64,000 nt of DNA. It comes from Acidaminococcus massiliensis. Lineage in GTDB: Bacteria > Bacillota > Negativicutes > Acidaminococcales > Acidaminococcaceae. Shown here in pieces: positions 1,762 to 52,755 of this stretch. Below the pieces are notes generated by a model that did not search any database, was not told the origin of the DNA, and worked only from the letters and a program-made list of their open reading frames with translations. The translations under genes and the position numbers were made by a program. The stretch is taken from contig NZ_LT608315.1 of NCBI RefSeq assembly GCF_900095825.1, forward strand, positions 200,318 to 264,317. Direction: 5' to 3'. The number at the start of each line of letters is the position of its first letter. Within the stretch, counting starts at the first letter, position 1.

Positions 1762-1774
1762 TGCTTCCACTCCT

Positions 1775-5856: not shown

Positions 5857-5857
5857 T

Positions 5858-6814: not shown

Positions 6815-6834
6815 ACCTATCCTCCTTTTTAATC

Positions 6835-6866: not shown

Positions 6867-6868
6867 GT

Positions 6869-8191: not shown

Positions 8192-8195
8192 GATG

Positions 8196-34438: not shown

Positions 34439-35194
34439 ATGAACAAGGTCGTAACCGTCAAAAACATCAAGATCGGCGAAGGGATCCCGAAAATTGCCAT
34501 ACCTATTTCCGATTCTGACTATGCGGGAATCAAGAAATCTGTCAACCTGATTATGAATTCCCCTTGTGATCTCATCGAATGGCGGGGGGATTTCTACAAT
34601 GATGTCACAGATCCGGAGGTCCGGATCAAACCTCTGACCCTTTTCCGGAACCAGCTCTGGAACCTGCCCGTGCTGTTCACCATCCGGACAGATGTGGAAG
34701 GGGGCATGATGGAGATTGACACCAAAGACTATACAGATCTGCTCCTGGCCGTCATCGACAGCGGTCTGATCGATATCGTAGATGTAGAGCTGTCACGGGG
34801 AGAAAAGACCGTCCGGACCGTCGTTCAGGCAGCCCATGATGCGGGTGTCAAGGTCATGGGTTCCCGTCACAATTTCAAGAATACCCCGGATAAAGATGTG
34901 ATCATCCGCAGCCTGGTGAAGATGCAGGAACTGGGCTGTGATCTGGTGAAATATGCTGTGATGCCCCAATCGGAACGGGATGTACTGACCCTCCTGGATA
35001 CGACCCTGACCATGAAGGAAGAATATAGCGATACTCCGGTGGTCACCATGTCCATGGGACACCTGGGCGTGGTCAGCCGGATCTGCGGTCAGGTTTTCGG
35101 CTCCGCCATCACCTTCGGCACCGCCGGAAAGGCTTCTGCCCCCGGGCAGCTGCCGGCCAATGGCCTGTCCATCTTCCTGAAGAGCTTATCCTGA
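34439..35194 (+). CDS. aroD: Type I 3-dehydroquinate dehydratase
   Basis: Dehydrates 3-dehydroquinate to 3-dehydroshikimate by a Schiff-base mechanism. The 251-residue TIM barrel has the class I residues: CDLIEWRGDFY (Glu for substrate), IVDVELSRGE, the catalytic His in GSRHNFKNTPD and the Schiff-base Lys in DLVKYAVMPQSERD. It lies between a YfcC carrier and a catabolic-looking aldehyde dehydrogenase, not in an aromatic biosynthesis operon. Its strong private promoter and terminator make it monocistronic. It may serve biosynthesis, quinate catabolism, or both. Confidence 0.95.
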   Translation: MNKVVTVKNIKIGEGIPKIAIPISDSDYAGIKKSVNLIMNSPCDLIEWRGDFYNDVTDPEVRIKPLTLFRNQLWNLPVLFTIRTDVEGGMMEIDTKDYTDLLLAVIDSGLIDIVDVELSRGEKTVRTVVQAAHDAGVKVMGSRHNFKNTPDKDVIIRSLVKMQELGCDLVKYAVMPQSERDVLTLLDTTLTMKEEYSDTPVVTMSMGHLGVVSRICGQVFGSAITFGTAGKASAPGQLPANGLSIFLKSLS

Positions 35195-38839: not shown

Positions 38840-39808
38840 TTATTTCTTTTCAGGAGTCTGTGTATGATTTTTTCCCTGCCGGGTAGGTACGTCCAGGATC
38901 AGGTCGCTGGCTTTCCCTGCCCGGAGCAGATAACTGTCCGTGGGACGGCCTAAAAATTCTGCCACCTTACGGCTGATGGCCATGAGCCGGTCCAAATCGA
39001 TGCCCGTGGCAATCCCCATTTCATCCAACATGTGGACCACATCTTCACTGGATACGTTCCCAGCCGCTCCCGGTACGAAAGGACATCCTCCCGTCCCGGC
39101 AAAACTGGTGTCATACTGGGTGAAGCCTTCACTGAGCCCGGCCAAGATATTGGCGATTCCCAGTCCCCGTGTATTGTGGAAATGGAGCCACCAGGAACAA
39201 TCCGGATATTTCGCCTTCACGGTCCGGCAGATTTCTGCTACCTGGGAAGGATAGGCCATGCCAGAGGCGTCGGACAGGCTGATTTCCCGGATTCCCACTT
39301 CCCGATAGGCTTCGATGATCTTGCACACCACGCTCACAGGGATCTCTTTGTCCCAGGGAGAGCCGAAAGCCATGGAAATGGAGCCGGAGATTTCGATGCC
39401 CTCTTCTTTTGCCCGTTCCACGCAGACGGCGAACCGTGCCACACTTTCCGCCGGAGTACAGTTCAGGTTGGCCAGATTATGGGCCACAGAAGCGGACACA
39501 TTCAGTTTCACTTTTTTACAGCCGCAGGCTACGGCCCGTTCCACCCCTTTTAAGTTGGCAATGAGGGCCCGGTATTCCACCCCTGGCTTCTGGCGGATCC
39601 CCTGGAACACTGCATCCGTATCCGCTACCTGGGGCACCGCTTTAGGGCTCACGAAGCTTCCCACCTCGATGACCGGGAATCCGGCCGCTGTCAGGTCGTT
39701 CACGGCCTGGATCTTCTGTTCCGTGGTCATGATCTTCTTTTCGTTCTGCAGACCGTCCCGGAGGCCCACTTCGCAGATACGTACTTGTTTTACATCAGTC
39801 AATGCCAT
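38840..39808 (-). CDS. HMG-CoA-lyase-like protein (DRE-TIM family)
   Basis: A 322-residue lyase expected to cleave a 3-hydroxy-3-methylacyl-CoA-like substrate by a retro-Claisen reaction. Hallmarks: EVGLRDGLQNEKK (Arg and Asp of the active site), VIEVGSFVSPKAVPQVAD, the metal histidines in WWLHFHNTRGLG and the catalytic cysteine in TGGCPFVPGAAGNVSSED. All key residues are conserved, so it should be active. The start at 39808 has an AGAGG site; an upstream GTG at 39817 is less likely. It follows the ICL-family gene by 12 bases. The true substrate in this island is unknown. Confidence 0.88.
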   Translation of the reverse strand: MALTDVKQVRICEVGLRDGLQNEKKIMTTEQKIQAVNDLTAAGFPVIEVGSFVSPKAVPQVADTDAVFQGIRQKPGVEYRALIANLKGVERAVACGCKKVKLNVSASVAHNLANLNCTPAESVARFAVCVERAKEEGIEISGSISMAFGSPWDKEIPVSVVCKIIEAYREVGIREISLSDASGMAYPSQVAEICRTVKAKYPDCSWWLHFHNTRGLGIANILAGLSEGFTQYDTSFAGTGGCPFVPGAAGNVSSEDVVHMLDEMGIATGIDLDRLMAISRKVAEFLGRPTDSYLLRAGKASDLILDVPTRQGKNHTQTPEKK

Positions 39809-39820
39809 CCCGTTCACCTC

Positions 39821-40696
39821 TTATTTCTTGATGTAGCGGTTCCCCGCTTCCACCAGTTCATCCACATGGACCAGTTTGATGTAGGTCTCGAAATCGATCA
39901 TATCTCCTTCATACCCTTCCGGTGTGCCATGTTCCTTAATATATTTCAGGATCCGGAGTTCCGCAGCCACTTGTGCGAACAGCACACTGAAGGGGAAAGT
40001 GATGATCTTGTATCCCAGTTTCTTCCCACAGTCTTCCGTAGTGAAATCTTTGAAGAAGGGCTGATTGGGGAAATATCCCAGATGGATGGGACCATGGACC
40101 TTTTCCGGCAGGCTGACCAGAGCTTCCCGGGATTTGGGCAGGATCTTCACCATATCCGCGCCCGCATCCAGATACGCATTGGCCCGGTCAACGGCTTCTG
40201 CATCCGGCGCATCGGTCCTGGCGATGATCAACAGGTCCGGGTCTTTCCGGGTATCCACGGCTGCCTGGATCTTCCCGCACATTTCATCCACACTGATGAC
40301 TTCGGTCTTGGACAGGAAGGGGCAGTTGGGGGGCTGCTGCTGGTCTTCGATGAAGAACCCGGCCACCCCGGTCTTTTCATATTCCTTCACGGTACGGATC
40401 ACATTCAGGGCATTGCCATATCCCCCTTCTGCATCACAGATGATAGGGATATCCACAGCATCGGCCATCTTGCTCAGGATATCCACCGATTCATTGAGAG
40501 CCAGGAGTCCGGAATCCGGCTGGGCCAGCACCACCCCGTGCATCCCATAGCCGGTGGTCCCGCAGACCTGGAAGCCCGCTACCTCGATGGCCCGAGCACT
40601 CAAGGCATCATAGGCGCAGGGCGCTACCAGATAATCATTTTCAGCCAGCAGACGGCGCAGTTTGGTAGTCATCCGCTCTTTTTTCTTCATGCTCAT
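39821..40696 (-). CDS. Isocitrate lyase / PEP mutase superfamily C-C lyase
   Basis: A 291-residue TIM-barrel lyase of the methylisocitrate-lyase/dimethylmalate-lyase/oxaloacetate-hydrolase type. Seen: VAPCAYDALSARAIEVAGF, TTGYGMHG, the metal-binding CDAEGGYGNALNVIRTV and FFIEDQQQPPNCPF. In typical methylisocitrate lyases the active loop reads KRCGH; here the cysteine is kept but the flanking residues are PPN and PF, so the substrate is probably different. The start at 40696 (MSMKKKERM) has an AGGAG site 11 bases upstream. It is separated from the ThDP gene by a weak terminator-like hairpin. Confidence 0.85.
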   Translation of the reverse strand: MSMKKKERMTTKLRRLLAENDYLVAPCAYDALSARAIEVAGFQVCGTTGYGMHGVVLAQPDSGLLALNESVDILSKMADAVDIPIICDAEGGYGNALNVIRTVKEYEKTGVAGFFIEDQQQPPNCPFLSKTEVISVDEMCGKIQAAVDTRKDPDLLIIARTDAPDAEAVDRANAYLDAGADMVKILPKSREALVSLPEKVHGPIHLGYFPNQPFFKDFTTEDCGKKLGYKIITFPFSVLFAQVAAELRILKYIKEHGTPEGYEGDMIDFETYIKLVHVDELVEAGNRYIKK

Positions 40697-40723
40697 AGGG
40701 ATACTTGCTCCTTTCATCCAGAA

Positions 40724-40755
40724 AAGGCTCTGTCCTCCAGGGAAAACAGAGCCTT
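40724..40755 (-). terminator. Weak intra-operon hairpin between the ThDP and ICL-family genes
   Basis: A perfect 10-bp stem (AAGGCTCTGT/ACAGAGCCTT) with a 12-base loop lies 11 bases past the ThDP gene stop. On minus it is followed by TTCTGG, so it may act as an attenuator or an RNA-stabilising structure, not a full terminator. Confidence 0.55.
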
Positions 40756-40765
40756 GCACCTTCTA

Positions 40766-42601
40766 TTATTTTCCCTTGTGGGATTTGGCATGATTGGGAG
40801 CGACAAATTCTCCCCGCTCATTTTTCACCAGTTTCCCGTCTTCCACCAGTTTGTTGGGGCTGTAGATATCATTGATGTTCCAGCAGCCCGGGGTGGGCAC
40901 CACGATGTTTTCCATGGGCGCTTCCACCAAGAAAGGACGGCCTTCCCGATTGGCTTTCAGGGCTGCTTCCATGGCCGGCTTGAATTCATCTGCGCTGTGG
41001 ACACAGATGGCTTCCACCCCGTAGGCACGGGCCACACCGGCCCAGCTGGGGCTGTAAGATTTCCCATCCGGGGTATGGAAAGTGGTCCCGAATTTGGTCC
41101 CGTAATTGGCATTTTCCAACCCGGCAATGGTCCCGAACGCAGAGTTGTTCATGACCACCCAAGTGCAGGGGATATCCTGTTCCACCGCCGTTGCCAGACA
41201 GGTAGGGTTCACCCCGAAACCTCCGTCGCCGGTGAGGGTGATGCAGATCTTATCCGGTTTTCCCAGTTTGCCTCCCAGGACGGCGGAAGCCCCGAAGCCC
41301 ATGGTGGCCAGCCCGGAAGAATGGTGGATGGTCCCAGGGACCGTAATGTCATACTGCTGGGCCACCCCATTTTTGTTCCAGCCCACATCCGTGAAGATTT
41401 CCGCATCTTCCGGCAGGACCTCTTTCACATCCTTCAAGATCCGCTGAGGGGTCATCGGGAAGCGGCCGTCATTGGAGATGGCTTCATTCTGTTTCTTGAA
41501 AGCCGCTTTGGCATCTGCAATGGCTTTCCGCAATTCCGGATGCTGTTTTCCTTCCGGACAGATTTCCTTCACTTCCGCCAGGATCTGCTGGAGTCCCAGT
41601 TTCAGATCCCCTACGGCTCCAATGGCCACCGGATAATTCCGGCCGATTTCTGCCGGGTCGATGTCGATCTGGAGGAATTCCGTATGGTCCGGATCAAAGG
41701 TCACTCCCCGGTACCAGCTGGAGCTGTCGGCTTCTGCAAACCGAGTCCCCAGGCCCAGGATCACATCGGCTTTGGACGTCAGGGAATGGGTGAATTCCAT
41801 GCCCCAGAAACCGGTCTGTCCGATCATCAGCGGATGGGCATCGCTGATGCAGCCCTGGCCCATCAAGGTCCGGGAAACAGGGATGTCCAGGAATTCTGCC
41901 AGGGCTGCCAGTTCGTCTGAAGCCTGGGCCAGGAGGATCCCGCCGCCGGCATGCATCACCGGATGTTCCGCAGCTACCAGTTTCTCGGCAATGGCTTTGG
42001 CCGCTGCCGGATCCAGAGCTGGTTTCATGGTGATATGGCTGTCTTTGTAAGTCCGGTCCCAAATATAATCTTCCACTTCCCGAGAGAAGATATCCATGGG
42101 CACATCGATGAGTACCGGGCCGGGACGGCCGGATTCTGCCAGGCGGAAGGCCTTGTCCATGATTTCCGCCATGGATTCCGGGTCATCCACCCGCCAAGCC
42201 CGTTTCACTACAGGTTCCAGGATCCGGTACTGGGTCCCGTCCCCGTGCATGTTCACTTCCTGATGGGGATGCTTGCCAAAATAATAGCTAGGCACATCCC
42301 CGGCGATGACCACCATGGGGATGGAGTCGAAAGCTGCATTGGCCACCCCGGTGAGCACATTGGTCAGGCCGGGTCCCAGGTGGCACAGGACCACGGAAGC
42401 CTTGTGGGTCACCCGGGCATAGCCGTCCGCCGCCGTAGACGCCACGGCTTCATGCCGATTGGAAATATATCTCACTTTTTTGCTGCGGCTCAAGGCATCC
42501 AGCATCCCGATCACCGTATGTCCGCACAGACCGAATACATATTTCACATCCCGCCGTTCCAGGTAATCCACCATCAGATCGGCAACCAGTTTCTTCGTCA
42601 T
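40766..42601 (-). CDS. Thiamine-diphosphate-dependent enzyme, acetolactate-synthase-like
   Basis: A 611-residue ThDP enzyme with the three-domain ALS/pyruvate-oxidase layout. The N-terminal domain has FGLCGHTVIGMLDAL and the catalytic Glu in SNRHEAVASTAADGYAR. The middle domain includes AEHPVMHAGGGILLAQ. The C-terminal ThDP motif is GDGGFGVNPTCLATAVEQ to MNNSAFGTI (GDG...NN). It could decarboxylate a 2-oxo acid, ligate aldehydes, or hydrolyse a cyclic 1,2-dione as IolD and cyclohexane-1,2-dione hydrolase do. There is no ilvN partner or branched-chain genes nearby, so biosynthetic ALS is unlikely. Its start is 15 bases past the stop of a lysR gene in the same orientation. Confidence 0.85.
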   Translation of the reverse strand: MTKKLVADLMVDYLERRDVKYVFGLCGHTVIGMLDALSRSKKVRYISNRHEAVASTAADGYARVTHKASVVLCHLGPGLTNVLTGVANAAFDSIPMVVIAGDVPSYYFGKHPHQEVNMHGDGTQYRILEPVVKRAWRVDDPESMAEIMDKAFRLAESGRPGPVLIDVPMDIFSREVEDYIWDRTYKDSHITMKPALDPAAAKAIAEKLVAAEHPVMHAGGGILLAQASDELAALAEFLDIPVSRTLMGQGCISDAHPLMIGQTGFWGMEFTHSLTSKADVILGLGTRFAEADSSSWYRGVTFDPDHTEFLQIDIDPAEIGRNYPVAIGAVGDLKLGLQQILAEVKEICPEGKQHPELRKAIADAKAAFKKQNEAISNDGRFPMTPQRILKDVKEVLPEDAEIFTDVGWNKNGVAQQYDITVPGTIHHSSGLATMGFGASAVLGGKLGKPDKICITLTGDGGFGVNPTCLATAVEQDIPCTWVVMNNSAFGTIAGLENANYGTKFGTTFHTPDGKSYSPSWAGVARAYGVEAICVHSADEFKPAMEAALKANREGRPFLVEAPMENIVVPTPGCWNINDIYSPNKLVEDGKLVKNERGEFVAPNHAKSHKGK

Positions 42602-42616: not shown

Positions 42617-43543
42617 TTATTCCGTATTGGCAAGGGCAATCCCTTTCCGTTGAAAATACTGATTCAGTACGTCTCCGCTGCGGATGACGTAATTTTTGAA
42701 ATATTCCACGGCCGGAGCCGTATACCGTTCCTGATTCCACTGGAGGTAGATTCCCCGGTCCCGGATGCCGTCCTCGATGGAAAGGATCTTTGTCCCAAAG
42801 GGAACTCCTATCAGGGGATAAGGAACGATGGCCACCCCGTGGCCGGCTGCCACGATCCCGTAAAGGATCACATCATTGGGACTTTCCATGACCACATTGA
42901 CCTGGATGCCCCGTTCCTGGAACAGCTGATCCACCTGGTTCCGGATCTGGCCGGAAGCATCGAAGGCGACAAAATCCACCCCTTGGAAATCCTTCATCTT
43001 CAGGCTTTTCCGCCGGGCCAGAGGATGATGTTCCGGCACCAGAGCCACCAGAGGATGTTTCCCCACATAACAGGCCCCAATCTGGGGGGCATCGATCCGG
43101 GTGCAGAAGATCAGGTCCACTTTCCCTTCCAGCAAATTTTTCCGCAGGTCATACCAGCCCTGGGAACCGTACTGGAACTGGACCCCCAGCCGGTTGGTCT
43201 CGCTCCGGTACCGGATCAACAGATCCGTTGCAAAGGCCTCCACCGAGTAAAATCCTGCACAATTGACACTCCCGGTGTTGGGATTGGTATATTCCTTCAG
43301 GGTATTGATCCCTGATTCCAGGGTATTCAGGGTCCGCAGGGCATAGGGCAGGAAGAGTTCTCCCGCCTTGGTCAGCCGGATGTTCCGGCCGTGGGGCTCG
43401 AACAGCTTGGTCCCCAGCTCATTTTCCATGTCCCGCATGGCATGGCTCAGGTTGGACTGGCTCACATGGAGCCGGTAAGCAGCCTTCGTATAATGTTCCA
43501 GTTCCGCGATTGCCGTGAAATAATACAGCCATTGTAATTGCAT
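42617..43543 (-). CDS. LysR-family regulator inside the catabolic operon
   Basis: A 308-residue LysR protein, co-oriented with its neighbours and placed between dctP and the ThDP gene. The helix-turn-helix is HYTKAAYRLHVSQSNLSHAM (about residues 16-35). The effector domain starts NTGSVNCAGFYSVEAFATD and includes EGKVDLIFCTRID. The start at 43543 is preferred (AGGGG site, normal LysR N-terminus). It probably senses the imported substrate or an intermediate and activates the operon. A large inverted repeat lies just upstream. Confidence 0.9.
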   Translation of the reverse strand: MQLQWLYYFTAIAELEHYTKAAYRLHVSQSNLSHAMRDMENELGTKLFEPHGRNIRLTKAGELFLPYALRTLNTLESGINTLKEYTNPNTGSVNCAGFYSVEAFATDLLIRYRSETNRLGVQFQYGSQGWYDLRKNLLEGKVDLIFCTRIDAPQIGACYVGKHPLVALVPEHHPLARRKSLKMKDFQGVDFVAFDASGQIRNQVDQLFQERGIQVNVVMESPNDVILYGIVAAGHGVAIVPYPLIGVPFGTKILSIEDGIRDRGIYLQWNQERYTAPAVEYFKNYVIRSGDVLNQYFQRKGIALANTE

Positions 43544-43558
43544 AACGTAGATTCCCCT

Positions 43559-43608
43559 AAAGACTGGATATGACAAGATTTACACATATTTTATCATACC
43601 CAGTCTTT
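43559..43608 (-). repeat. Inverted repeat between dctP and lysR
   Basis: The 15-base arms AAAGACTGGATATGA (43559-43573) and TCATACCCAGTCTTT (43594-43608) match at 14 of 15 positions around a 20-base AT-rich centre. The second arm lacks a proper U-tract on minus. It may be a LysR autoregulatory operator or an mRNA stem that separates transporter from enzyme expression. Confidence 0.6.
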
Positions 43609-43626: not shown

Positions 43627-44697
43627 TTATTTGCTGGCAGCATCCAGTTCCTTGGTCAGCAAGGTCCCCAGGCCGCCAACTTGTTCATCGATCTTTTTGT
43701 TCAGTTCCTGTACCCCAGGGAGAGCCAATACCTGATCATAGAAAGATTTTTCATAGGTCACCAGGGTCATTCCCTTCTTTTTCAGGGTTTCCTTGTTGTC
43801 CTGATCCACTTTGGACAGGGTGGGAGCCAGTTCCTTCAGGGCTTCCTGCACCGCCTGGTTCAGGGCTTTCTGATAGGCAGGATCCAGGCTGTCATAGGCC
43901 TTTTTGTTGATGCAGATCTGGTTGGCATAGAGGATGTGGTTGGTATCTGCCACATACTTCTGCACTTCATTGAAGTTAGCGGATACAATGGTGTCAGCCG
44001 CATTTTCTTCCGCATCTACGGTACCGCTCTGGAGTGCGAAGTACAGTTCCGGCCAAGCCAGCGGAGTGGGGTTAGCCCCCAGGGCGGACCAGAAGGCCAT
44101 ATGGTTCTTATTGCTCATGGTACGGATCTTCAGCCCTTTGAAATCTTCCAGGTTCTTCAGATCCTTGTTGGCAGTGGTCAGCCGGAAGGTAGCGTTCTGG
44201 AGGATCCCCAAATAATGGAGCCCGGCCTTTTCATAGGCTCCGGAGAGCTTCTTATGGAATTCCCCATTCCCGTTCAGGACCTTATCGATGGTCTTGCCGT
44301 CATATTTGGCAAAGGACATGGGCATATCGAAAACGGCGGTTTCCGGGATGATGGCGGTCACCGGAGCCATCTGGCTGACCACAATCTGGATGTCGTTGGA
44401 TTTCAGCTGCCGGAGCAGGTCTTCGTCCCCACCCAATTCCGAATTGGGGTGATAGTCGATTTTCAGTTTGCCGCCAGTGATCTTGTCTACATTCTTGGCC
44501 ACCAGTTCTCCAAACCGTTGGCCGGCGGAATCCTTCCCTGCAGAGTCGGCCCCAATCAGTTCCACGGTCTTCAGTTTGGCATATTCACCGCTCCCGGCCG
44601 CTTCTTTTTTGGTTTCTTCTCCGCCGCAGCCGGTGAGACCCATGAGCATCAAACTTGCCAGCAAGACACCTGCCGCTTTTTTCCAAGAGTTTTTCAT
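43627..44697 (-). CDS. dctP: TRAP transporter solute-binding lipoprotein DctP, copy 1
   Basis: A 356-residue periplasmic binding protein. The signal ends in a lipobox, MGLTGC. The DctP fold shows GGKLKIDYHPNSELGGDEDL, the carboxylate-binding Arg in GLKIRTMSNKNHM and ALGANPTPLAWPELYFAL. It captures an organic acid for the DctQM permease just upstream. It is strikingly similar to the second DctP at 48863-49927 (for example an identical AFWSALGANPTPLAWPELYF block), so the two bind the same or closely related acids. Confidence 0.93.
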   Translation of the reverse strand: MKNSWKKAAGVLLASLMLMGLTGCGGEETKKEAAGSGEYAKLKTVELIGADSAGKDSAGQRFGELVAKNVDKITGGKLKIDYHPNSELGGDEDLLRQLKSNDIQIVVSQMAPVTAIIPETAVFDMPMSFAKYDGKTIDKVLNGNGEFHKKLSGAYEKAGLHYLGILQNATFRLTTANKDLKNLEDFKGLKIRTMSNKNHMAFWSALGANPTPLAWPELYFALQSGTVDAEENAADTIVSANFNEVQKYVADTNHILYANQICINKKAYDSLDPAYQKALNQAVQEALKELAPTLSKVDQDNKETLKKKGMTLVTYEKSFYDQVLALPGVQELNKKIDEQVGGLGTLLTKELDAASK

Positions 44698-44737: not shown

Positions 44738-46054
44738 TTATTTGGCTGCTACTTTCAAAAGCCCGGGCAGATAGGTGGAGATACTGGGCACATAGGTGAT
44801 GACGAACAAGGCCACCACGAAAGCCAGGATGAAGGGGACAGCTTTTTTTGCCACACTCATGGGCTGCTGTTCCGCGATGTTCCCGGCCACGAACAGGTCC
44901 AAGCCGAATGGCGGCGTGGCCAGACCGATGGACAGGCAGCATACCAGTACAACCCCCAGATGGACAGGATCCACACCCAGTTTCACACAGGCCGGCAGCA
45001 ATACCGGTGCCAGGATGATGATGGCCGGACCCGTATCCATGACCATGCCCAGCAGGAAGAAGAAGATCACCAGGACAGTCAGGACGGTAAAGCTGGAATG
45101 GAAGTTCCCCAGGATGAAGGTTTCCACCGTCCGGGTAGCCCGGGTCAAGGACAGTACCCGCCCGAAAGCAGTGGCAAAAGCCAGGACGAATGCCAGACCG
45201 CCATAGGTCTTGACAGATTCGCAGAGCATGGGGATCAGTTCGCTGATTTTCATGGTCTTATAGATGAAGAGAGAAACGATCAGTGCATAGAACACGGAAA
45301 CCGTAGCGGCTTCTGTAGGAGTGGTGAACCCGGTGTAGATGCCCCCCAGGACGATCACCGGGCAGAGCAGCGCCCAGAAACTGTCCTTGAAGAGTTTCAG
45401 GAAACCCTGGGCAGCTAGTTCATCCATACGGGCCTTGATTTTCTCTTTGTCTTCCCCGTGTCTGGCACAGTAATAGACTGCATAGACCATCAGTGCCAGG
45501 CCGATCAGGATTCCAGGGAATACGCCGCCCAGGAATAGGTCCCCAGTGGAGACCCCGGTGGCCAAAGAATACAGGACAAAAGGAATGGACGGCGGGATGA
45601 TGACCCCCAGGCCGCCGGCTACGGCGATCAGCCCAGCGCTCCAGGTCCGGTTATAGCCCAGGTCCGTCAGGAAGGGGACACACATGGCCCCTACGGCAGC
45701 CGTGGTTGCCGGACCGGAACCGGAAATGGCTCCGTAGAACAGACAGGTAAGGATCACTGCACAGGGCAGTCCTCCGGTAAAATGGCCGGCAAAATAGGCA
45801 AAGAAGTTGAACAGCTTCCGGGAGATTCCCCCCTTGGCCATGATCACGCCTCCCAGGATGAACAGTGGGACTGCCAGGATGGGAGTAGAGTTGGCTCCGG
45901 AGAACGTATTGTTCAGGAGCTGCACCACGGATCCGCCCTTGTGGAGGATCTCGATGGGAGCCACCGACCCCAGGATCATGCTGACACTGATGGGAATGGA
46001 AACTGCGATGGCGATCAAGAATACTGCAAATACCATAACCGCTGCCATACTCAA
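44738..46054 (-). CDS. dctM: TRAP transporter large permease subunit DctM, copy 1
   Basis: A 438-residue membrane protein with about twelve helices in two repeats. Family motifs include VPLFILGGVIMAKGGISRKL, YGAISGSGPATTAAVGAM, GVIIPPSIPFVLYSLATGVS, GIYTGFTTPTEAATVS and MDTGPAIIILAPVLLPA. It moves the DctP-bound acid with sodium. It overlaps dctQ by four bases and is nearly the twin of the DctM at 49945-51240. Confidence 0.94.
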   Translation of the reverse strand: MSMAAVMVFAVFLIAIAVSIPISVSMILGSVAPIEILHKGGSVVQLLNNTFSGANSTPILAVPLFILGGVIMAKGGISRKLFNFFAYFAGHFTGGLPCAVILTCLFYGAISGSGPATTAAVGAMCVPFLTDLGYNRTWSAGLIAVAGGLGVIIPPSIPFVLYSLATGVSTGDLFLGGVFPGILIGLALMVYAVYYCARHGEDKEKIKARMDELAAQGFLKLFKDSFWALLCPVIVLGGIYTGFTTPTEAATVSVFYALIVSLFIYKTMKISELIPMLCESVKTYGGLAFVLAFATAFGRVLSLTRATRTVETFILGNFHSSFTVLTVLVIFFFLLGMVMDTGPAIIILAPVLLPACVKLGVDPVHLGVVLVCCLSIGLATPPFGLDLFVAGNIAEQQPMSVAKKAVPFILAFVVALFVITYVPSISTYLPGLLKVAAK

Positions 46055-46605
46055 TCATCCCCTTCCTGTGCCATGCTGGCTTCTTTGGCTGCATCCTGCA
46101 TGGTCTGCTCGATGGTACTCAATTCTTTCTTATGGAAATCCCGGATATGGATCACGATCATCTGGATGCCCCGGATCGTCCCCAGGAAAAAACCGATGAC
46201 CATGAAGGCATAGACAAAAGCCATGGACCACTGCATGGCCGGAGAGATTTCCCGGCTCCGGGCGATGTTGTTATACACATCGATGGAATAATATCCCAGG
46301 TAAGCCATGCTGACGGCCGTAATGACATCCACCGCCAAATTGATGATTTTCTTCAGCAGATCCGGGAGCAGGTCCTTCAGGACACCCACCCGCAGCATGT
46401 TTTCCATCCGGATGGTATAAGGAAGGGAGATGAAGACGCTCCAGATCCACATGAACCGGCAGAATTCCTCTGCCCAGGTCAGGGAACTCATCCCCGGGAT
46501 CTTCCGCACAATGACCTGCAGCATGCTGACGCAGGCGATCAGCACCAGCATGATGACCAAAAAGGTCTCCTCCAGGTGTTTGTCCAGCCACCGTATGACT
46601 TTCAT
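46051..46605 (-). CDS. dctQ: TRAP transporter small permease subunit DctQ, copy 1
   Basis: A 184-residue protein with four membrane helices. DctQ traits are FLVIMLVLIACVSMLQVIVR near the start, LTWAEEFCRFMWIWSVFISL, and AMQWSMAFVYAFMVIGFFLG. It ends with a Gln/Glu-rich cytoplasmic tail. It forms the TRAP permease with DctM, whose gene overlaps by four bases. Confidence 0.92.
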   Translation of the reverse strand: MKVIRWLDKHLEETFLVIMLVLIACVSMLQVIVRKIPGMSSLTWAEEFCRFMWIWSVFISLPYTIRMENMLRVGVLKDLLPDLLKKIINLAVDVITAVSMAYLGYYSIDVYNNIARSREISPAMQWSMAFVYAFMVIGFFLGTIRGIQMIVIHIRDFHKKELSTIEQTMQDAAKEASMAQEGDD

Positions 46606-46631: not shown

Positions 46632-47504
46632 TTATTTCCCTTCATTCCGTTCCGCCAGGATATCCAGAAGTTCCTGCCGCATAGCTTCCACTGGCGCTTT
46701 TTGTCCCGTCCACAGCTCGATTTGGGCGGTTCCCTGATACAGGCTCATGCTCAGGCCGTTCAGGATCCTGCAGCCTGCCGCTTCTGCATTGAGCAGGAAC
46801 TGTGTCTTTGCCGGATTGTAGCAGGCATCGAAGAAGAATTGGCCCGGTTTGATGTATTCCTTGGGCAGAGGGCTCTTGCCGATGCTTTTGCCCATCCCCA
46901 CCCCGCTGGCATTGAGGACGATGTCACAGGCGGCCAGCTTGGAATAGTCTTCGTGAGGAACGAATTCAGCCACCCGGCTGAAATTTTTGTTGATGTCTTC
47001 CACCAGAGATCGAGCGCTGTCCTCGAACAGATCTGTGATGTAGATCTTCGGTGCTCCGTGGTAGGCCAAGATGGAACACATGGCCCGTCCGGCGCCTCCG
47101 CCTCCGAAACAGAAGAACACTTTTTCTTCCACTTTGATGCCGGCTTCCACCAGAGCCTGGTAGAAACCAACTCCGTCCGTATTGTAGCCGATCAGTTTCC
47201 CTTCCGGAGTCCTGACCACTGTATTGCTGGACCCCATCTTGGCACACAGGGGATCCAGTTCATCCAGGTATTCCAGGACCTTCACTTTGTTGGGCTTGGT
47301 CACGGCAAATCCGGCAAAAGGCATGTACCGCAGTCCGTTGACGATGTCCCCCAGGTGCTCATTCCCTGCGACTGTGTAGAAATAGACCAGGTTGAGTCCA
47401 GCTGCTTCGTATCCTTTGTTCTGCATCCGAGCAGCAAAAGACTGTGCCAGAGGATCTCCGATCAAGGTAATCATACGGGTTTCAATATCCGGTATCATAT
47501 GCAT
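46632..47504 (-). CDS. Shikimate-dehydrogenase-like oxidoreductase, copy 1 (variant pocket, NAD-type site)
   Basis: A 290-residue AroE-superfamily enzyme. Kept: the catalytic Lys in TKPNKVKVLEYLDELD, SSNTVV, the catalytic Asp in GYNTDGVGF and Gln in LSMSLYQGTAQ. Changed: the shikimate-carboxylate motif SxS(P) is SFAA, NVTxP is AVTKP and the usual AVNT is SSNT. The nucleotide motif is FGGGGAGRA, and the next strand ends in ITDL, placing an Asp where NADP enzymes have NRT; this favours NAD+ and so oxidation. It lies in a TRAP operon, not with aro genes. Likely a catabolic hydroaromatic or cyclitol-acid dehydrogenase; the exact substrate is unknown. Confidence 0.85.
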   Translation of the reverse strand: MHMIPDIETRMITLIGDPLAQSFAARMQNKGYEAAGLNLVYFYTVAGNEHLGDIVNGLRYMPFAGFAVTKPNKVKVLEYLDELDPLCAKMGSSNTVVRTPEGKLIGYNTDGVGFYQALVEAGIKVEEKVFFCFGGGGAGRAMCSILAYHGAPKIYITDLFEDSARSLVEDINKNFSRVAEFVPHEDYSKLAACDIVLNASGVGMGKSIGKSPLPKEYIKPGQFFFDACYNPAKTQFLLNAEAAGCRILNGLSMSLYQGTAQIELWTGQKAPVEAMRQELLDILAERNEGK

Positions 47505-47525
47505 TCCATTCCTTTCTGTACAAAA

Positions 47526-48332
47526 TTACTGGTCGACCAGCTGAAGGACTTCTTTGGCATGGGCCAGGCATCTTTCCACATGGCCCATAGCGCCGTATCG
47601 GTGGATGTATTCCTCATTGGGGAGTTCGATGGAACAGGGATTCTTGGGAAGGGCCTTGAGGATGGGCACCAGCGGGATGGCTCCCAGTCCTGGGTATTCC
47701 CTCCGGGCCCGCATGGTTTCCGTCCGGTCTCGAAGATAATGGTCCTTGGGACAGTCACAAAGATGGATCAACCCGAACCGCTCCGGTGCAATGGCTTGGA
47801 TGGCCTCCGGTGTATCCTGGGCCCAGAACACATAGAGCATATCCAGGAACAATTTCAAGTTTGGTGCCTGGACTTTTTCCTGGAGCCGAGCCACTCCAGC
47901 CAGATCGTGGATGGCAGAAGAAGCCGGATATTCCAGATTCACATTCATCCCGAATTCCTGAGCCTGTTCACAGATTTTTCCAAAAGCTTCTACGGCAAAT
48001 TCCTGGTTTTCCGTCCAGCAACTGGAAAGGATATCCGTTGCCCCCAGCTCCGCTCCTTTTTCAAAGACTTCCCGATAGTCCAGCGGCAGATCCTCCCGGA
48101 CCCGGACCAACTCGATATCCAATACCTTCATACCTGTTTCCTGAAGGGTCCTGCGGATCTCTGCAAACAGGTCCTTTTCCCGGATCAGATCATTCTGGGG
48201 TTCCCCCTGCTGTCCCATGGGAATCGTCCGGAGGCTTACGGTATCGTAGCCGGCTTCTGCGGCCATCCGGATCTGGTCCACCGCTTCGATGCCGGGGACC
48301 GTCAAATACGCCAACGAGAATTTTCGTGCCAT
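47526..48332 (-). CDS. AP-endonuclease-2-fold TIM-barrel protein (sugar isomerase / dehydratase-like)
   Basis: A 268-residue TIM barrel of the xylose-isomerase-like superfamily that includes IolE, IolI, hydroxypyruvate isomerase and 3-dehydroshikimate dehydratase. Likely metal ligands lie in MKVLDIELVRV, MNVNLEYPAS (Glu), LKLFLDMLYVF (Asp), LIHLCDCPKDHY (His and Asp) and NPCSIELPNEEYI (Glu). The usual LDxxH His is replaced by Tyr in LDMLYV. The start at 48332 has an AGGGGGA site; the frame is open upstream but does not resemble the family. It is the first gene of the long operon; from context it may be a dehydratase or isomerase of the oxidised ring compound. Confidence 0.75.
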   Translation of the reverse strand: MARKFSLAYLTVPGIEAVDQIRMAAEAGYDTVSLRTIPMGQQGEPQNDLIREKDLFAEIRRTLQETGMKVLDIELVRVREDLPLDYREVFEKGAELGATDILSSCWTENQEFAVEAFGKICEQAQEFGMNVNLEYPASSAIHDLAGVARLQEKVQAPNLKLFLDMLYVFWAQDTPEAIQAIAPERFGLIHLCDCPKDHYLRDRTETMRARREYPGLGAIPLVPILKALPKNPCSIELPNEEYIHRYGAMGHVERCLAHAKEVLQLVDQ

Positions 48333-48690
48333 CAGTTTTCCCCCTTTGGCAGATTCTATCGCAAGACTATACCCACAACTTGGAATTATCAGTTTTCTTT
48401 GGATAGGTGCATCCCTGTGCTTCTTCTCCTGCATTCCTGTCCTGCTGCAGATTCCGCCGGAATTATTGCTGAAATCAGTATCTTCAGTCCTTTTTACAAT
48501 TTCATTATAGCTTTCCCCCATATATGAATCTAATGGTACTTATGCATGTTCTGATGAAGGAAATTCATATATCGCCGATATTATAGAGCCATTCTATAGA
48601 TAGTCTTCCCGATTTCCGGAAAACTCCAGTACTGATGCGCTTTTTTCTTTTTCTCTCCCAGCGTAGCCATTCCTTTATAGTTTTTTTCGA
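48333..48690 (-). promoter_or_regulatory. Upstream control region of the TIM-barrel/TRAP operon
   Basis: On minus a TATAAT (48580-48585) has only a poor -35 (GAAGAC near 48603-48608), as expected for an activator-dependent promoter. Just downstream, in the predicted leader, a perfect 10-bp inverted repeat ATATATGAAT/ATTCATATAT (48520-48529 and 48563-48572) is spaced by 33 bases. The leader would be about 240 bases. Nothing else was recognised here. Confidence 0.45.
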
Positions 48691-48745
48691 TAAAGAAAAG
48701 TCCTTTTTAGGAGGAATACCGTCTCCTAAAAAGGACTTTTCTTTA
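48691..48745. terminator. Perfect 23-bp hairpin between the two TRAP modules
   Basis: Arms 48691-48713 and 48723-48745 are exact complements around a nine-base loop. The arm ends are A/T-rich, so it can work as a terminator for the minus-strand dctP copy 2 transcript, which stops 118 bases before it. 48746-48862 holds nothing else recognised. Confidence 0.65.
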
Positions 48746-48862
48746 CAAATATCACCAATGGATTGATGAAAAGATTAGATAAAATCGTTCTCAGGGGGAA
48801 TTCTTCCCCTTCAAACTATGAAAAAAATTCACATTTTATTCTTCCAGCTTTGTGGACTGCTC

Positions 48863-49927
48863 TTATTTCCCCAACTCTTCCATCATCAGCGTCCCCAGCC
48901 CGCCGGTCTGGGCATCGATTTTCCGGTACAGTTCCTGGACAGGCGGCTGATTCCTGACTGCTTCGTAGAATTCCGGTGGGTAAGTCACCAAGACCATGCC
49001 TTTTTTCTGGAGTTTTTCCTTGCAGTCCCGATCCACCTGGACCAAAGTCGGTGCCAATTCTCCCATAGCTTCCTGGACAGCTTCTTCCAGCACTTTTTGA
49101 TAAGGTTCCGGCAAACTGTCATAGGCTTTTTTATTCAAGACCATCTCATTGGCATAAAGGATCACATTGGTTTCTGCCACATATTTCTGCACTTCATTGA
49201 AATTGGCGGAGACAATGGTGTCGGCTGCGTTTTCTTCTGCATCCACGATGCCGCTCTGGAGGGAAAAATACAGTTCCGGCCAGGCCAGCGGCGTGGGATT
49301 GGCCCCCAGGGCAGACCAGAAGGCCATGTGGTTCCGGTTGCTCATGGTGCGGATCTTCAGCCCCCGGAAATCCTCTGCTTCTTTCACCGGACGGTTGGAA
49401 GTCATCAGCCGATAGGTACCATTCTGGAGAGTGCCCATATAATGGAGCCCGGCCCGGTCATAGGCTTCCGCCAGTTTCCGCCGAAAGGGCCCGTCTTCGT
49501 TGAGTACCCGTCCGATGGTTTTCCCTTCATAGGGAGCAAAGACCATGGGCAGGTCGAACACCGCTCCTTCCGGCACAAAAGCCGTCACCGGGGCCATCTG
49601 GCCCACCACCAGCTGGATGTCGTTGGCCCGGAGCTGCCGGAGCAGGTCCTCGTCCCCGCCCAGTTCCGCATTGGGATGGTAGTCGATGGTCAATTGGCCG
49701 CCGGTCCGTTCCGCCACCTTTTGGGCCACCCGTTCTCCGAACCGCTGTCCCACCGATCCCTTGCCGGAGGAATCTCCTCCCACCAGCACCACTTTGGGCA
49801 GATTGGCATAAGGGCCTGCCCCTTTCCCCTTGTTGTCTGCAGCCGGTTTGCTAGAGCAGCCAGCGGCTCCCAGAAAGAGCACGGCCCCCAGACAGGCTGC
49901 AGCCATTTTTCTCCACAATGTATGCAT
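48863..49927 (-). CDS. dctP: TRAP transporter solute-binding lipoprotein DctP, copy 2
   Basis: A 354-residue binding protein with lipobox FLGAAGC. It has GGQLTIDYHPNAELGGDEDL, the ligand Arg in GLKIRTMSNRNHM, and the block AFWSALGANPTPLAWPELYF identical to copy 1. The start at 49927 has an AAGGGG site; longer frames shadow dctM. Last gene of the second module. Confidence 0.93.
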   Translation of the reverse strand: MHTLWRKMAAACLGAVLFLGAAGCSSKPAADNKGKGAGPYANLPKVVLVGGDSSGKGSVGQRFGERVAQKVAERTGGQLTIDYHPNAELGGDEDLLRQLRANDIQLVVGQMAPVTAFVPEGAVFDLPMVFAPYEGKTIGRVLNEDGPFRRKLAEAYDRAGLHYMGTLQNGTYRLMTSNRPVKEAEDFRGLKIRTMSNRNHMAFWSALGANPTPLAWPELYFSLQSGIVDAEENAADTIVSANFNEVQKYVAETNVILYANEMVLNKKAYDSLPEPYQKVLEEAVQEAMGELAPTLVQVDRDCKEKLQKKGMVLVTYPPEFYEAVRNQPPVQELYRKIDAQTGGLGTLMMEELGK

Positions 49928-49944
49928 AGCTGTCCCCTTCTTTC

Positions 49945-51240
49945 TTACCACAGTGCCGGCAGGAAAGTGGAAAGACCCGGGATGTAGGTGATTCCCACCA
50001 AAGCCGCCAGAAAGGCACAGATGAAAGGTACGGACTTCCGGGCCACGCTCATAGGCTGCTGTCCCGCAATGTTCCCGGCTACGAACAAATCCAGCCCGAA
50101 AGGCGGCGTAGCCAGGCCGATGGACAGGCAGCACACCAGCACCACCCCCAGATGGATGGGGTCCACTCCCAATTTTTTGCAGGCTGGGAGCAGCACCGGC
50201 ACCAGGATAATGATGGCCGGCCCGGTATCCATCACCATGCCCAAGAGCAGGAAGATCACTACTAACACGGTCAGCACGGCCACTCCGGAAGTAAAATTCC
50301 CTAGGATAAAGCTTTCTACTGCTTTGGTGGCCCGGGTCATGGACAGCACCCGGCCAAAGGCCGTGGCAAACGCCAGGACAAAAGCCAATCCTCCATAAGT
50401 CCGGACCGATTCCCGGAGCATGGGCAGGATATCCCCGAAGGTCATGGTCTTATACACAAAAAGAGACACCAGCAGGGCATAGAATACGGACACCGCTGCT
50501 GCTTCCGTGGGGGTGGTGAAGCCGGTGTAAATTCCCCCCAGGACAATCACCGGACACAGGAGAGCCCAGAAACTGTCCCGGAATAACTGAAAAAAGCCCA
50601 GCCGGGATAGTTCTGCCATCCGTTCCCGGACCTTTTCCTTATCTTCCCCGTTCCGGAGACAGTGGAGCACCGCATAGACCATCAATGCCAAGCCCACCAG
50701 GAGGCCGGGGAGGATCCCCGCCAAGAACAATTTTCCAGTAGATACCCCTGTTGCCAGGGAATAGAGCACAAAGGGAATGGAAGGCGGGATGATGACCCCC
50801 AGGCCTCCGGCTACGGCCACCAAACCGGCGCTCCAGGTCTTGTCATACCCCAGCTCCGTCAGAAAGGGTACGCACATGGCTCCTACCGCAGCAGTGGTAG
50901 CCGGACCGGAACCGGAAATGGCCCCGTAGAACAGACAAGTGAGGATCACCGCACAGGGCAGGCCCCCGGGGATCCGTCCGGCAAAAAAAGCGAAGAAATT
51001 GAACAGTTTCCGGGAAATCCCGCCCTTTGCCATGATCACACCCCCCAGGATGAACAGGGGTACCGCCAGGATGGGCGTGGAATTGGCTCCAGAAAAGGCA
51101 TTGTGCAGCACCTGGCCCATGGTGCCTCCCTGATGGAACAGGGCAATAGGAGCCGTGGCTCCCAGGATCATGCTGATCCCGATGGGCAGGGACAGGGCAA
51201 TGGCCAGCAGAAATACAGAAAAAATCAGTGCAGCGGACAA
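49945..51240 (-). CDS. dctM: TRAP transporter large permease subunit DctM, copy 2
   Basis: A 431-residue protein with the same signature blocks as copy 1: VPLFILGGVIMAKGGISRKL, YGAISGSGPATTAAVGAM, GVIIPPSIPFVLYSLATGVS and MDTGPAIIILVPVLLPA. The main differences from copy 1 are at the C-terminus and in the central loop. It starts two bases after the dctQ stop. Confidence 0.94.
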   Translation of the reverse strand: MSAALIFSVFLLAIALSLPIGISMILGATAPIALFHQGGTMGQVLHNAFSGANSTPILAVPLFILGGVIMAKGGISRKLFNFFAFFAGRIPGGLPCAVILTCLFYGAISGSGPATTAAVGAMCVPFLTELGYDKTWSAGLVAVAGGLGVIIPPSIPFVLYSLATGVSTGKLFLAGILPGLLVGLALMVYAVLHCLRNGEDKEKVRERMAELSRLGFFQLFRDSFWALLCPVIVLGGIYTGFTTPTEAAAVSVFYALLVSLFVYKTMTFGDILPMLRESVRTYGGLAFVLAFATAFGRVLSMTRATKAVESFILGNFTSGVAVLTVLVVIFLLLGMVMDTGPAIIILVPVLLPACKKLGVDPIHLGVVLVCCLSIGLATPPFGLDLFVAGNIAGQQPMSVARKSVPFICAFLAALVGITYIPGLSTFLPALW

Positions 51241-51242
51241 AA

Positions 51243-51860
51243 TCAGTCATCCCCTTCCCGCGCCAAAGCGGCTTCTTCAGCCGCATCCTGAAAAGTCTGT
51301 TCCAGGGTGGACAATTCCTTTTCTTGGAGATGCTGGACATGGAGCCAGATCATCTGGATGGCCCGCACCGCTGCCAGGAAGAACCCCAGGACCATGAAGC
51401 CGTACACAAAGGCCATGGGCCACTGCATGGCCGGAGAGATTTCATGGCTTTCAGCAATCACCGAAACCACTTTCACCCCATACAGGCCCAGGACCCCCAT
51501 ACAGCCCAGGGTAATAGCATCCACTGCCAGGTTCAGCACCTTCCGGAGGGTTTCTGGAAGAAGGTCCTTCAGTACCCCCACCCGGAGCATGCTGTCCATC
51601 CGGATGGTATAGGGCAGGGATAGAAAAACGCTCCAGATCCACAGGAACCGGCATAGTTCTTCTGCCCAGGTGAGAGATGCCATGCCCGGGATTTTCCGGA
51701 CAATGACCTGCAGCATGGTGATACCGGCGATAAGGACCAGCATCACCATCAAAAAGGTCTCTTCCAAGTGCAGATCCAGCCAGTGGATCAGAGCGTTCAA
51801 AAAGTTGTTGTGTTTTGCCTTGCTGCTTTCCTTCAGATTTTCCATCGTGAACCTCTCCAT
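51243..51860 (-). CDS. dctQ: TRAP transporter small permease subunit DctQ, copy 2
   Basis: A 205-residue protein with four membrane helices, longer at the N-terminus than copy 1. It shows FLMVMLVLIAGITMLQVIVR, LTWAEELCRFLWIWSVFLSL and AMQWPMAFVYGFMVLGFFLA. Two starts are possible: 51860 (AGGA site) or the ATG five codons in at 51845 (GAGAGG site). It begins 28 bases after the upstream dehydrogenase stop. Confidence 0.9.
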   Translation of the reverse strand: MERFTMENLKESSKAKHNNFLNALIHWLDLHLEETFLMVMLVLIAGITMLQVIVRKIPGMASLTWAEELCRFLWIWSVFLSLPYTIRMDSMLRVGVLKDLLPETLRKVLNLAVDAITLGCMGVLGLYGVKVVSVIAESHEISPAMQWPMAFVYGFMVLGFFLAAVRAIQMIWLHVQHLQEKELSTLEQTFQDAAEEAALAREGDD

Positions 51861-51888
51861 TCTACTTTCCTACATGAGAGCAGGAACC

Positions 51889-52755
51889 TTACTCCTGCCG
51901 CTTCTTTTCTGCCAGGATCTTCTCCAGTTCCTGGCGCATGGCCTCCACCGGAGCCTCCTGTCCTGACCACAGTTCCACCTGGGCCGTTCCCTGGTAGAGA
52001 CTCATGGTGAGCCCGTTCAGCACCGGGCAGCCGACTTTTTCCGCGTTTTCCAGGAACCGGGTCCGGGCCGGATTGTAACAGGCGTCGAAATAAAACTGGC
52101 CGGGCCGGATGTATTCCGGGGGCAGCGGAGTCTGGCCGATGGTCTTCCCCATCCCCACACCGCTGGCATTGATCACAACATTTGCTTCCTGCACCCGGGA
52201 AAAATCACCATAGGGGATTGCTTCCGCCACCGGGGCGAAGTTCTGGTTGATGTCCCCCGCCAGGCTCCGGGCGCTTTCTTCCGCCAGGTCCGCAATCAGG
52301 ATCCGGCCGGCGCCATGATAAGCCAGAGCTGAACAGATAGCCCGACCGGCACCCCCACTGCCAATACAGAAAAAGGTCTTTTCCTTGACGCTGACCCCGG
52401 CTTCGTCCAAGGCCCGAGAGAAGCCCACTCCGTCTGTATTGTACCCTTTCAGACGGCCGTCCGGCAGTTTCACCACCGTGTTGCTGGAACCCATTTTGGC
52501 ACACAGGGGATCCAACTCGTCCAGGTATTCCAAGACTTTGACTTTGTTGGGTTTGGTCACGGCAAACCCTGCAAAGGGCATGTGCCGCAGCCCCTGGATG
52601 ATCTCTCCCAGGTGTTCCGGGCCGGTCACTGTATAGAAATACACCAGATCCAGCCCTGCCGCCTCATACCCTCGGTTCTGCATCCGGGCTGCAAAGGACT
52701 GGGCCAAGGGATCTCCCAGCAAGGTTATGAAACGGGTATGGATATCGATATGCAT
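51889..52755 (-). CDS. Shikimate-dehydrogenase-like oxidoreductase, copy 2 (variant pocket, NAD-type site)
   Basis: A 288-residue paralogue of the enzyme at 46632-47504. It has the same unusual pocket (LAQSFAARMQN in place of the SxSP motif, AVTKPNKVKVLEYLDELD, SSNTVV) and keeps the catalytic Lys, the Asp of GYNTDGVGF and the Gln of MSLYQGTAQ. The nucleotide motif is IGSGGAGRA and the next strand ends LIADL, again with Asp favouring NAD+. It is the first gene of the second module and has a near-consensus promoter. Confidence 0.85.
   Translation of the reverse strand: MHIDIHTRFITLLGDPLAQSFAARMQNRGYEAAGLDLVYFYTVTGPEHLGEIIQGLRHMPFAGFAVTKPNKVKVLEYLDELDPLCAKMGSSNTVVKLPDGRLKGYNTDGVGFSRALDEAGVSVKEKTFFCIGSGGAGRAICSALAYHGAGRILIADLAEESARSLAGDINQNFAPVAEAIPYGDFSRVQEANVVINASGVGMGKTIGQTPLPPEYIRPGQFYFDACYNPARTRFLENAEKVGCPVLNGLTMSLYQGTAQVELWSGQEAPVEAMRQELEKILAEKKRQE

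Follow-up and report, generated by a model that had tools for sequence, protein, structure and literature searches.

Ring cleavage without aromatization is known from the degradation of myo-inositol, in which a dehydrogenase (IolG), a TIM-barrel dehydratase (IolE) and a thiamine diphosphate (ThDP)-dependent hydrolase of a cyclic 1,2-dione (IolD) act together. A further ThDP-dependent enzyme of this kind is the cyclohexane-1,2-dione hydrolase (CDH) of Azoarcus (2pgn). To our knowledge, the catabolic routes for quinate all pass through aromatic protocatechuate, by means of a shikimate dehydrogenase (SDH), the 3-dehydroquinate dehydratase AroD and a TIM-barrel protein (QuiC, QsuB, Qa-4 or Listeria QuiC2) that eliminates the C5 hydroxyl. 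According to PMC9324987, QuiC enzymes perform this elimination on 3-dehydroshikimate in a metal-dependent manner, which yields protocatechuate. A literature search, thin in its coverage of subscription journals, returned no description of an anaerobic, non-aromatic quinate pathway. In older physiological work, isolates fermenting hydroaromatic compounds were reportedly obtained by Brune and Schink.

Here, we analysed a stretch of 64,000 nucleotides from Acidaminococcus massiliensis (contig NZ_LT608315.1, positions 200,318 to 264,317; hereafter the window), which harbours two genes for SDH-like enzymes, SDH1 and SDH2. SDH1 belongs to a run of minus-strand genes extending from 48332 to 38840 at intergenic distances of −4 to 50 bp, i.e. 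TIM-barrel protein, SDH1, three tripartite ATP-independent periplasmic (TRAP) transporter genes, LysR-type regulator, ThDP enzyme, phosphoenolpyruvate (PEP)-mutase/isocitrate-lyase-type lyase and 3-hydroxy-3-methylglutaryl-CoA (HMG-CoA)-lyase-like protein. Beyond the run follow a further open reading frame (ORF), a plus-strand LysR gene, an acylating aldehyde dehydrogenase and AroD (Table 1). Directly adjacent lies a second run, headed by SDH2 and equipped with TRAP genes of its own. We propose, with a probability of about 0.4, that these genes belong to an undescribed, O2-independent and non-aromatic pathway from quinate and/or shikimate to acetyl-CoA and 2-oxoglutarate, and that this pathway occurs in Acidaminococcus of the gut, in further Bacillota, in a denitrifying Azoarcus and in actinomycetes. 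It would combine SDH and AroD with an inositol-type dehydratase, a ThDP hydrolase and either of two interchangeable, unrelated homocitryl-CoA lyases, making homocitrate a catabolic intermediate.

The proposed pathway shares with the inositol route the succession of dehydrogenase, TIM-barrel dehydratase and ThDP hydrolase of a cyclic 1,2-dione, but has an SDH fold in place of IolG, a TIM barrel nearer to Lmo2234 and IolI than to IolE, a putative hydroaromatic acid substrate, and acetyl-CoA and 2-oxoglutarate as predicted products. SDH, AroD and a TIM-barrel elimination of the C5 hydroxyl would be common to the protocatechuate route as well; in contrast to that route, however, the TIM-barrel protein is proposed to act on 3-dehydroquinate, leaving a non-aromatic ring to be opened by the ThDP enzyme. 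CDH shares the ThDP superfamily and the proposed hydrolysis of a 1,2-dione ring, yet is not the nearest relative of the ThDP enzyme.

The ThDP enzyme shows the three-domain architecture TPP_enzyme_N, M and C. In a tree built without CDH, 13 complete ThDP proteins from the module formed one clade (SH-like approximate likelihood ratio test 99) spanning three phyla (Bacillota, Azoarcus and two actinomycetes), which is likely separate from the clade of CDH. All 13 carry the motif G-K/R-H-P-H-Q-E, which is found in none of the 10 control proteins described below; a second candidate mark, CGH near residue 28, was rejected since it also occurs in 3 of these 10. A profile of eight ThDP proteins, itself made from SDH-linked members, was run against 398 Bacillota genomes and matched 8 of them at E<=1e-150; six reached at least 800 bits, while the weaker matches of G268 and G397 (640 bits) were treated as controls. 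Among 24 chosen genomes, 12 hold a clade ThDP gene (in G419 as two contig-end pieces), and a class-level ThDP search around G337 (15 genomes) returned nothing further. Finally, a plasmid search with the window protein (E<=1e-100) returned four records, all of which were inspected: three have a clade ThDP gene (46–55 % identity) and the fourth, from Aminobacter, a more distant one (36 %).

At the 15 loci with a ThDP gene of this clade (the window, G003, G008, G019, G426, G419, G038, G052, G166, G337, G078, G269, Azoarcus, Streptomyces and Nonomuraea), an SDH gene is present in 13, i.e. in all except G269 (a 5.9 kb contig) and Nonomuraea (within the fetched stretches). The TIM-barrel gene was found at 10, type I AroD at 8, an HMG-CoA-lyase-like or citryl-CoA lyase at 9 and the acylating aldehyde dehydrogenase at 6. 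Nine of the loci were chosen through their SDH, which they thus contain by construction; the six found by ThDP search (G166, G078, G269, Azoarcus, Streptomyces and Nonomuraea) hold SDH in 4, AroD in 3 and a lyase in 5 cases. As controls served all weaker ThDP matches from the Bacillota and 24-genome searches, i.e. 10 hits at 6 loci, none of which had an SDH or AroD at E<=1e-10. Since these control loci, including G268 and G397, also hold TRAP, Tct, CoA-transferase or weak HMG-CoA lyase matches, transporters and weak lyase matches are not specific to the module.

From this gene content, the clades, the linkage and the motifs, we infer every reaction of the following scheme. SDH would oxidize quinate to 3-dehydroquinate, while shikimate would enter via 3-dehydroshikimate, with AroD running towards 3-dehydroquinate. 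The TIM-barrel protein would then remove the C5 hydroxyl (with the C4 hydrogen) of 3-dehydroquinate to give the enol of a 3,4-dione, a ring that would not become aromatic at once because C1 still bears a hydroxyl. In an IolD-like manner, the ThDP enzyme would hydrolyse the C3–C4 bond, yielding OHC-CH2-C(OH)(COOH)-CH2-CH2-COOH (homocitrate semialdehyde). IolD places the carboxylate beside the deoxy carbon; here, the carboxylate would equally come to lie next to the deoxy carbon and the aldehyde next to CH2-C(OH). The acylating aldehyde dehydrogenase would produce homocitryl-CoA, to be split by the HMG-CoA-lyase-like protein in a retro-Claisen reaction into acetyl-CoA and 2-oxoglutarate; alternatively, the PEP-mutase-type lyase might split free homocitrate (a 2-alkylmalate) into acetate and 2-oxoglutarate. 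The net reaction would be quinate + 2 NAD+ + CoA -> acetyl-CoA + 2-oxoglutarate + 2 NADH, and the balance closes (C7H12O6 + H2O = C2H4O2 + C5H6O5 + 4 H). Where the aldehyde dehydrogenase is missing, i.e. in Azoarcus and the actinomycetes, an oxidizing ThDP enzyme together with a CoA-transferase could replace it; CDH is able to oxidize its product with NAD+. Since Acidaminococcus is a glutamate fermenter, 2-oxoglutarate would be a usable product.

The HMG-CoA-lyase-like protein matches PRK05692 above its cut-off as well as Pfam HMGL-like, and such a protein mostly occupies the lyase slot in the Bacillota loci. In G078, Azoarcus, Streptomyces and Nonomuraea, the slot is taken by a citrate-synthase-domain protein (40–55 % identities), which is annotated as citryl-CoA lyase in Azoarcus and is accompanied by a CoA-transferase in the latter three. 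Both HMG-CoA lyases and citryl-CoA lyases split 3-hydroxyacyl-CoAs with a tertiary hydroxyl, and the strongest indication of homocitryl-CoA, or of a closely similar compound, is that two unrelated lyase families share this slot.

As for the dehydrogenases, SDH1 and SDH2 are 74 % identical and score above the cut-offs of Pfam Shikimate_dh_N and SDH_C. Among the NCBIfam matches listed, neither passed a curated threshold (at best 199.5 and 209.5 bits for SDH1 and SDH2, respectively, versus 252), and this includes TIGR00507 for aroE (183.4 and 188.3 bits versus 200.2) and the YdiB model NF009390 (145.3 and 143.1 bits versus 349), for which reason we term them YdiB-like rather than YdiB. With YdiB and the NAD-type dehydrogenase of Listeria (1npd, 1o9b, 3tnl) they share the fold, the tree neighbourhood, the catalytic residues and probably NAD at about 32–37 % identity, but where those enzymes carry SxSP, N/G-V-S-M-P and AVNT or AINT, SDH1 and SDH2 have SFAA, A-V-T-K-P and SSNT. 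In a 58-row alignment (SDH2 numbering), the SxSP slot reads S20-F21-A22-A23, the NVTxPxK slot A65-V-T-K-P-N-K71 and the AVNT slot S90-S91-N92-T93, while N106-T-D108-G and Q255 are present. Both copies thus keep the first Ser of SxS and, within an AroE-type SDH fold, the catalytic or hydroxyl-binding Lys, Asn, Asp and Gln (K71, N92, D108 and Q255), but have lost the second Ser and the Pro of SxSP and the Asn of NVT. An earlier reading of the window's sequence (the original prediction) had named the three replaced motifs and the retained Lys, Asp and Gln correctly for both copies. It had also placed an Asp where NADP enzymes have Arg, which holds in sense though not in column: Asp156, immediately after the second Rossmann strand (151–155 in the SDH2 model), aligns with the Asn of the canonical NRT, and the Arg column holds Leu157. 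The NRT/R motif of NADP-dependent AroE is thus replaced by D-L in both copies, and Asp156 probably indicates the use of NAD.

The phylogenetic analysis of these 58 rows, which include the genome's own AroE, recovered the SFAA sequences as a clade of 13 rows with a single origin (support 100/99). Since all 13 carry SFAA (SYAA in L019), the motif is not due to chance. Asp156 is present in 12 of them (Ser in L019), and SSNT is not clade-wide, alternating with SCNT, ACNT or ASNT. A group of 27 rows (99/90) unites the SFAA clade with YdiB and Listeria 3tnl, both crystallized with NAD. The genome's own AroE falls outside this group; its exact place is unsure because its long branch joins another long branch. 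The suspected separate subgroup is thereby borne out, and the suspected NAD preference stands as a prediction from Asp156 and the tree. The AlphaFold model of SDH2 (predicted local distance difference test, pLDDT, 89.4) best matched the shikimate- and NAD-bound structure 3tnl from Listeria (Z 36.2, root-mean-square deviation 1.8, 277 aligned), followed by YdiB (1npd, Z 35.3), Aquifex AroE, the quinate dehydrogenase of C. glutamicum and 5-ketofructose reductase; as all of these lie at Z 34–36, the fold alone does not choose among the SDH relatives. Taken together, SDH1 and SDH2 represent a well-supported, distinct SDH subgroup most likely acting on quinate or shikimate.

The altered residues lie at the carboxylate end of the pocket, whereas those facing the ring hydroxyls are retained. 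Quinate and shikimate differ exactly at C1, where quinate has an extra hydroxyl, and the exchange of SxS for SxA more likely tunes the substrate preference than signals a new ring system; a new Lys68 (NVTKP) might make up for the carboxylate contact that is lost. In rows other than the SFAA clade, the motif shows gradations, with SFSA in the module SDH of L020, SYSS in L022, TFSP in L018, L048 and L049 and SFSP in L021 to L027, nearly all with NVTKP or AVTKP. SxSP-type SDHs also occupy the module at L086, L087, L023, L018, L048 and L095. Since other module enzymes retain SxSP, the pocket change concerns preference at most. Plant quinate dehydrogenases are known in which Gly replaces the second Ser of SxS; these, together with VKAP in the Azoarcus module enzyme, would be in line with quinate. 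The latter enzyme, encoded on a plasmid of Azoarcus sp. KH32C (L094, 15819–16679), also has LFDG instead of NTDG and lacks a Gln close to its end, its nearest solved relative being P. putida 4k28; these lost conserved positions suggest another substrate or mechanism in that lineage. The different or modified cyclic acid envisaged by the original prediction is not supported; AroD, a QuiC2-like TIM barrel and SxSP-type SDHs at other loci of this module point to quinate or shikimate itself, while its catabolic setting agrees with the location of both genes in transport and catabolism operons. In short, its observation is confirmed and its interpretation partly supported, the surrounding ring-cleavage gene set having been missed. 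SDH1 itself is likely, in our view, to be a dehydrogenase of the quinate/shikimate type that depends on NAD and belongs to a catabolic operon. That SDH1 and SDH2 are both NAD enzymes of the YdiB kind oxidizing the C3 hydroxyl of TRAP-imported quinate and/or shikimate, with SDH1 initiating non-aromatic catabolism, has in our view about even odds.

Several points weigh against the proposed pathway. The TIM-barrel gene is absent at 5 of the 15 loci and the lyase at 6 (some contigs end), and no acylating aldehyde dehydrogenase was found at the Azoarcus, Streptomyces and Nonomuraea loci. The closest matches of the ThDP enzyme are BbmA and acetolactate synthases, CDH ranking far lower (3e-64 versus 1.9e-100 for the best matches), so that the sequence names no dione hydrolase; neither was IolD among the NCBIfam matches listed (25 of 52 families). 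Our claim is therefore that the ThDP enzyme may work like IolD or CDH, not that it is one. The profile matches of the TIM barrel to Lmo2234 and to the isomerase IolI are nearly tied, and its model reached no more than a moderate pLDDT of 72. AroD is the sole dehydroquinase detected in the window genome, whether of type I or of type II, and as the only one need not be catabolic despite its position near the operon. The module of G426 even lacks type I AroD. Moreover, 7 of the 13 SFAA rows lie at loci without a ThDP gene: none was found within about 10 kb on each side in L005 to L008, nor at E<=1e-100 in the whole genomes of L004, L013 and L014, and the related SDHs of G191, G219, G244 and G293 are likewise without one. 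In L005, the SFAA gene adjoins genes for an arabinose isomerase, an aldolase, a kinase and an Fe-dependent alcohol dehydrogenase.

The idea of an AroD dedicated to catabolism in the window is weakened accordingly. G008 and G078 possess a type II dehydroquinase elsewhere, and the type I copy in their module is therefore free for catabolism; G426, in turn, indicates that AroD is not essential, which fits quinate as the substrate. SDH2 and its own TRAP system might instead serve salvage, converting imported quinate or shikimate to dehydroquinate or dehydroshikimate for aromatic amino acids rather than for energy. Such a role is somewhat doubtful, although G004, G006 and G007 hold an SDH2-type gene, TRAP genes and AroD within about 3–9 kb and no clade ThDP gene; in the window, SDH2 is immediately next to the SDH1 run, and both roles are compatible.

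Considering that 7 of the 13 SFAA rows lie apart from a ThDP gene, the altered pocket does not go hand in hand with the ring-cleavage pathway and, with SxSP, SFSA and VKAP enzymes filling the same slot, SFAA was rejected as a hallmark of the module. With Pfam covering part of the neighbours of L005, L007 and L008, the SFAA genes of L005 and L006 lie beside sugar and TRAP genes, that of L007 in a region for polysaccharides that lacks TRAP genes, and that of L008 near TRAP genes only. In G019, a second SDH-like gene (L064, 3427–4305, plus strand) with SFSP but AVTKP adjoins a 954 aa ORF, and the fetched stretch holds no ThDP or TRAP genes. SDH1 and SDH2 might instead act on another polyol acid, a cyclitol or a sugar, as does 5-ketofructose reductase from the same superfamily. 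Such reductases are related to SDHs, as stated in PMC7954740, and one of them (7cok) matches closely in sequence (135 bits) and structure (Z 34.7), yet no better than several SDHs. The Ser/Pro change at the carboxylate-binding motif and the sugar genes of L005 would also agree with this explanation. The Aminobacter sp. MSH1 plasmid pUSP3 (L112, 9968–18681) holds, by annotation only, two ThDP genes, the distant match mentioned above being from this plasmid, with a Gfo/Idh/MocA oxidoreductase, a TIM barrel and an aldehyde dehydrogenase; this looks like a cyclitol-type pathway, i.e. the same dehydrogenase–TIM barrel–ThDP–aldehyde dehydrogenase logic for another substrate class. Regardless, a polyol or sugar substrate is unlikely given type I AroD at 8 of the 15 loci, the intact SxSP of SDHs in the same slot elsewhere and the DctP-type TRAP systems, which mostly carry carboxylates.

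Among solved structures, Lmo2234 is most closely related to the TIM barrel (1.1e-8 with the single sequence, 1.7e-18 with the profile), and we take it to be the Listeria QuiC2 dehydratase. In the TIM barrel, residues E132, D162, H188 and E234 are invariant in 8 rows and align with the metal ligands E, D, H and E of IolI, and IolE is not among the profile matches of this protein at E<=0.01. Its structural matches tie at Z 14–16.3, comprising many sugar epimerases, AsbF (15.3), Lmo2234 (15.2) and IolE (14.2), and the fold thus leaves its function undecided. The relation to Lmo2234 would suit a conventional protocatechuate route, in which SDH and AroD supply 3-dehydroshikimate to a QuiC2-type dehydratase, while the ThDP enzyme, the aldehyde dehydrogenase and the lyase serve another pathway. 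However, the ThDP gene stands in one run with SDH1 and the TIM barrel and is linked to SDH across three phyla, and no protein of the UbiD family, to which the known protocatechuate decarboxylases belong, was found in the genome, which makes this route improbable.

Finally, that SDH1 and SDH2 are ordinary AroE enzymes, i.e. NADP-linked 3-dehydroshikimate reductases for biosynthesis with the same fold and catalytic residues, is highly improbable and was rejected on the grounds of Asp156 in place of Asn-Arg, the clade position, the missed cut-offs of the AroE model and a separate AroE gene elsewhere on the contig, beside ORFs similar to genes of L069 of the size of 5-enolpyruvylshikimate-3-phosphate and chorismate synthases (names by reading). 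L069 itself (G419, 1–8578) carries ThDP, SDH, TIM-barrel and AroD genes followed by ORFs that resemble, by BLAST, those beside the AroE gene of the window genome; genes of shikimate catabolism and biosynthesis may be intermingled there.

Table 1. Genes of the two SDH runs and their surroundings in the window
Feature	Position	Strand	Basis
SDH1, SDH-like dehydrogenase, 290 aa	46632..47504	-	ORF, Pfam, tree, alignment; paralogue of SDH2
SDH2, SDH-like dehydrogenase, 288 aa, SFAA pocket, Asp156	51889..52755	-	ORF, Pfam, model, tree, alignment
TIM-barrel protein (AP_endonuc_2), QuiC2/Lmo2234- and IolI-like	47526..48332	-	Listed ORF to 48521; start at about 48332 from homologues
TRAP small membrane subunit, SDH1 run	46051..46605	-	Length and place between SDH1 and large subunit; homologues in same place
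TRAP large membrane subunit, SDH1 run	44738..46054	-	Sequence and place; homologues
TRAP substrate-binding protein (DctP)	43627..44697	-	Profile matches
LysR-type regulator	42617..43576	-	Profile matches
ThDP-dependent enzyme, proposed ring-opening 1,2-dione hydrolase	40766..42601	-	Profiles, clade tree
PEP-mutase/isocitrate-lyase family protein	39821..40759	-	Nearest solved: 2,3-dimethylmalate lyase, petal death protein
HMG-CoA-lyase-like protein, proposed homocitryl-CoA lyase	38840..39817	-	PRK05692, 332 bits (cut-off 246)
LysR-type regulator, divergent from aldehyde dehydrogenase	36897..37868	+	Profile matches
CoA-acylating aldehyde dehydrogenase (SauS/EutE-like)	35268..36707	-	SauS model, 411 bits (cut-off 600)
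AroD, type I 3-dehydroquinate dehydratase	34439..35194	+	Profile matches
Second TRAP small subunit, SDH2 run	51243..51860	-	ORF; paralogue of 46051..46605
Second TRAP large subunit, SDH2 run	49945..51240	-	ORF; comparison with homologues
Second TRAP substrate-binding protein	48863..50134	-	ORF; listed start probably too long

The putative 254 aa ORF between the HMG-CoA-lyase-like and LysR genes (37992–38756, minus strand) has no Pfam or NCBIfam match, and an 89 % identical stretch of 234 aa adjoins AroD in L060. Just upstream of SDH2 lies an auxin-efflux-type (AEC) permease gene (52863–53825, minus strand), a 52 % identical relative of which ends the module in L010. By eye, the first bases of the window resemble the complement of a 16S rRNA gene.

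Quinate is abundant in the diet, e.g. in coffee and fruit, as chlorogenate. If true, the proposed pathway would provide the genes for an anaerobic use of quinate and shikimate and explain how an amino-acid fermenter could gain 2-oxoglutarate from plant acids. An orphan ThDP clade, annotated as acetolactate synthase-like, would acquire a function, and the SDH subgroup with its altered carboxylate pocket a role open to testing. One odd motif leads in this way to a prediction for five enzymes that is amenable to in vitro tests.

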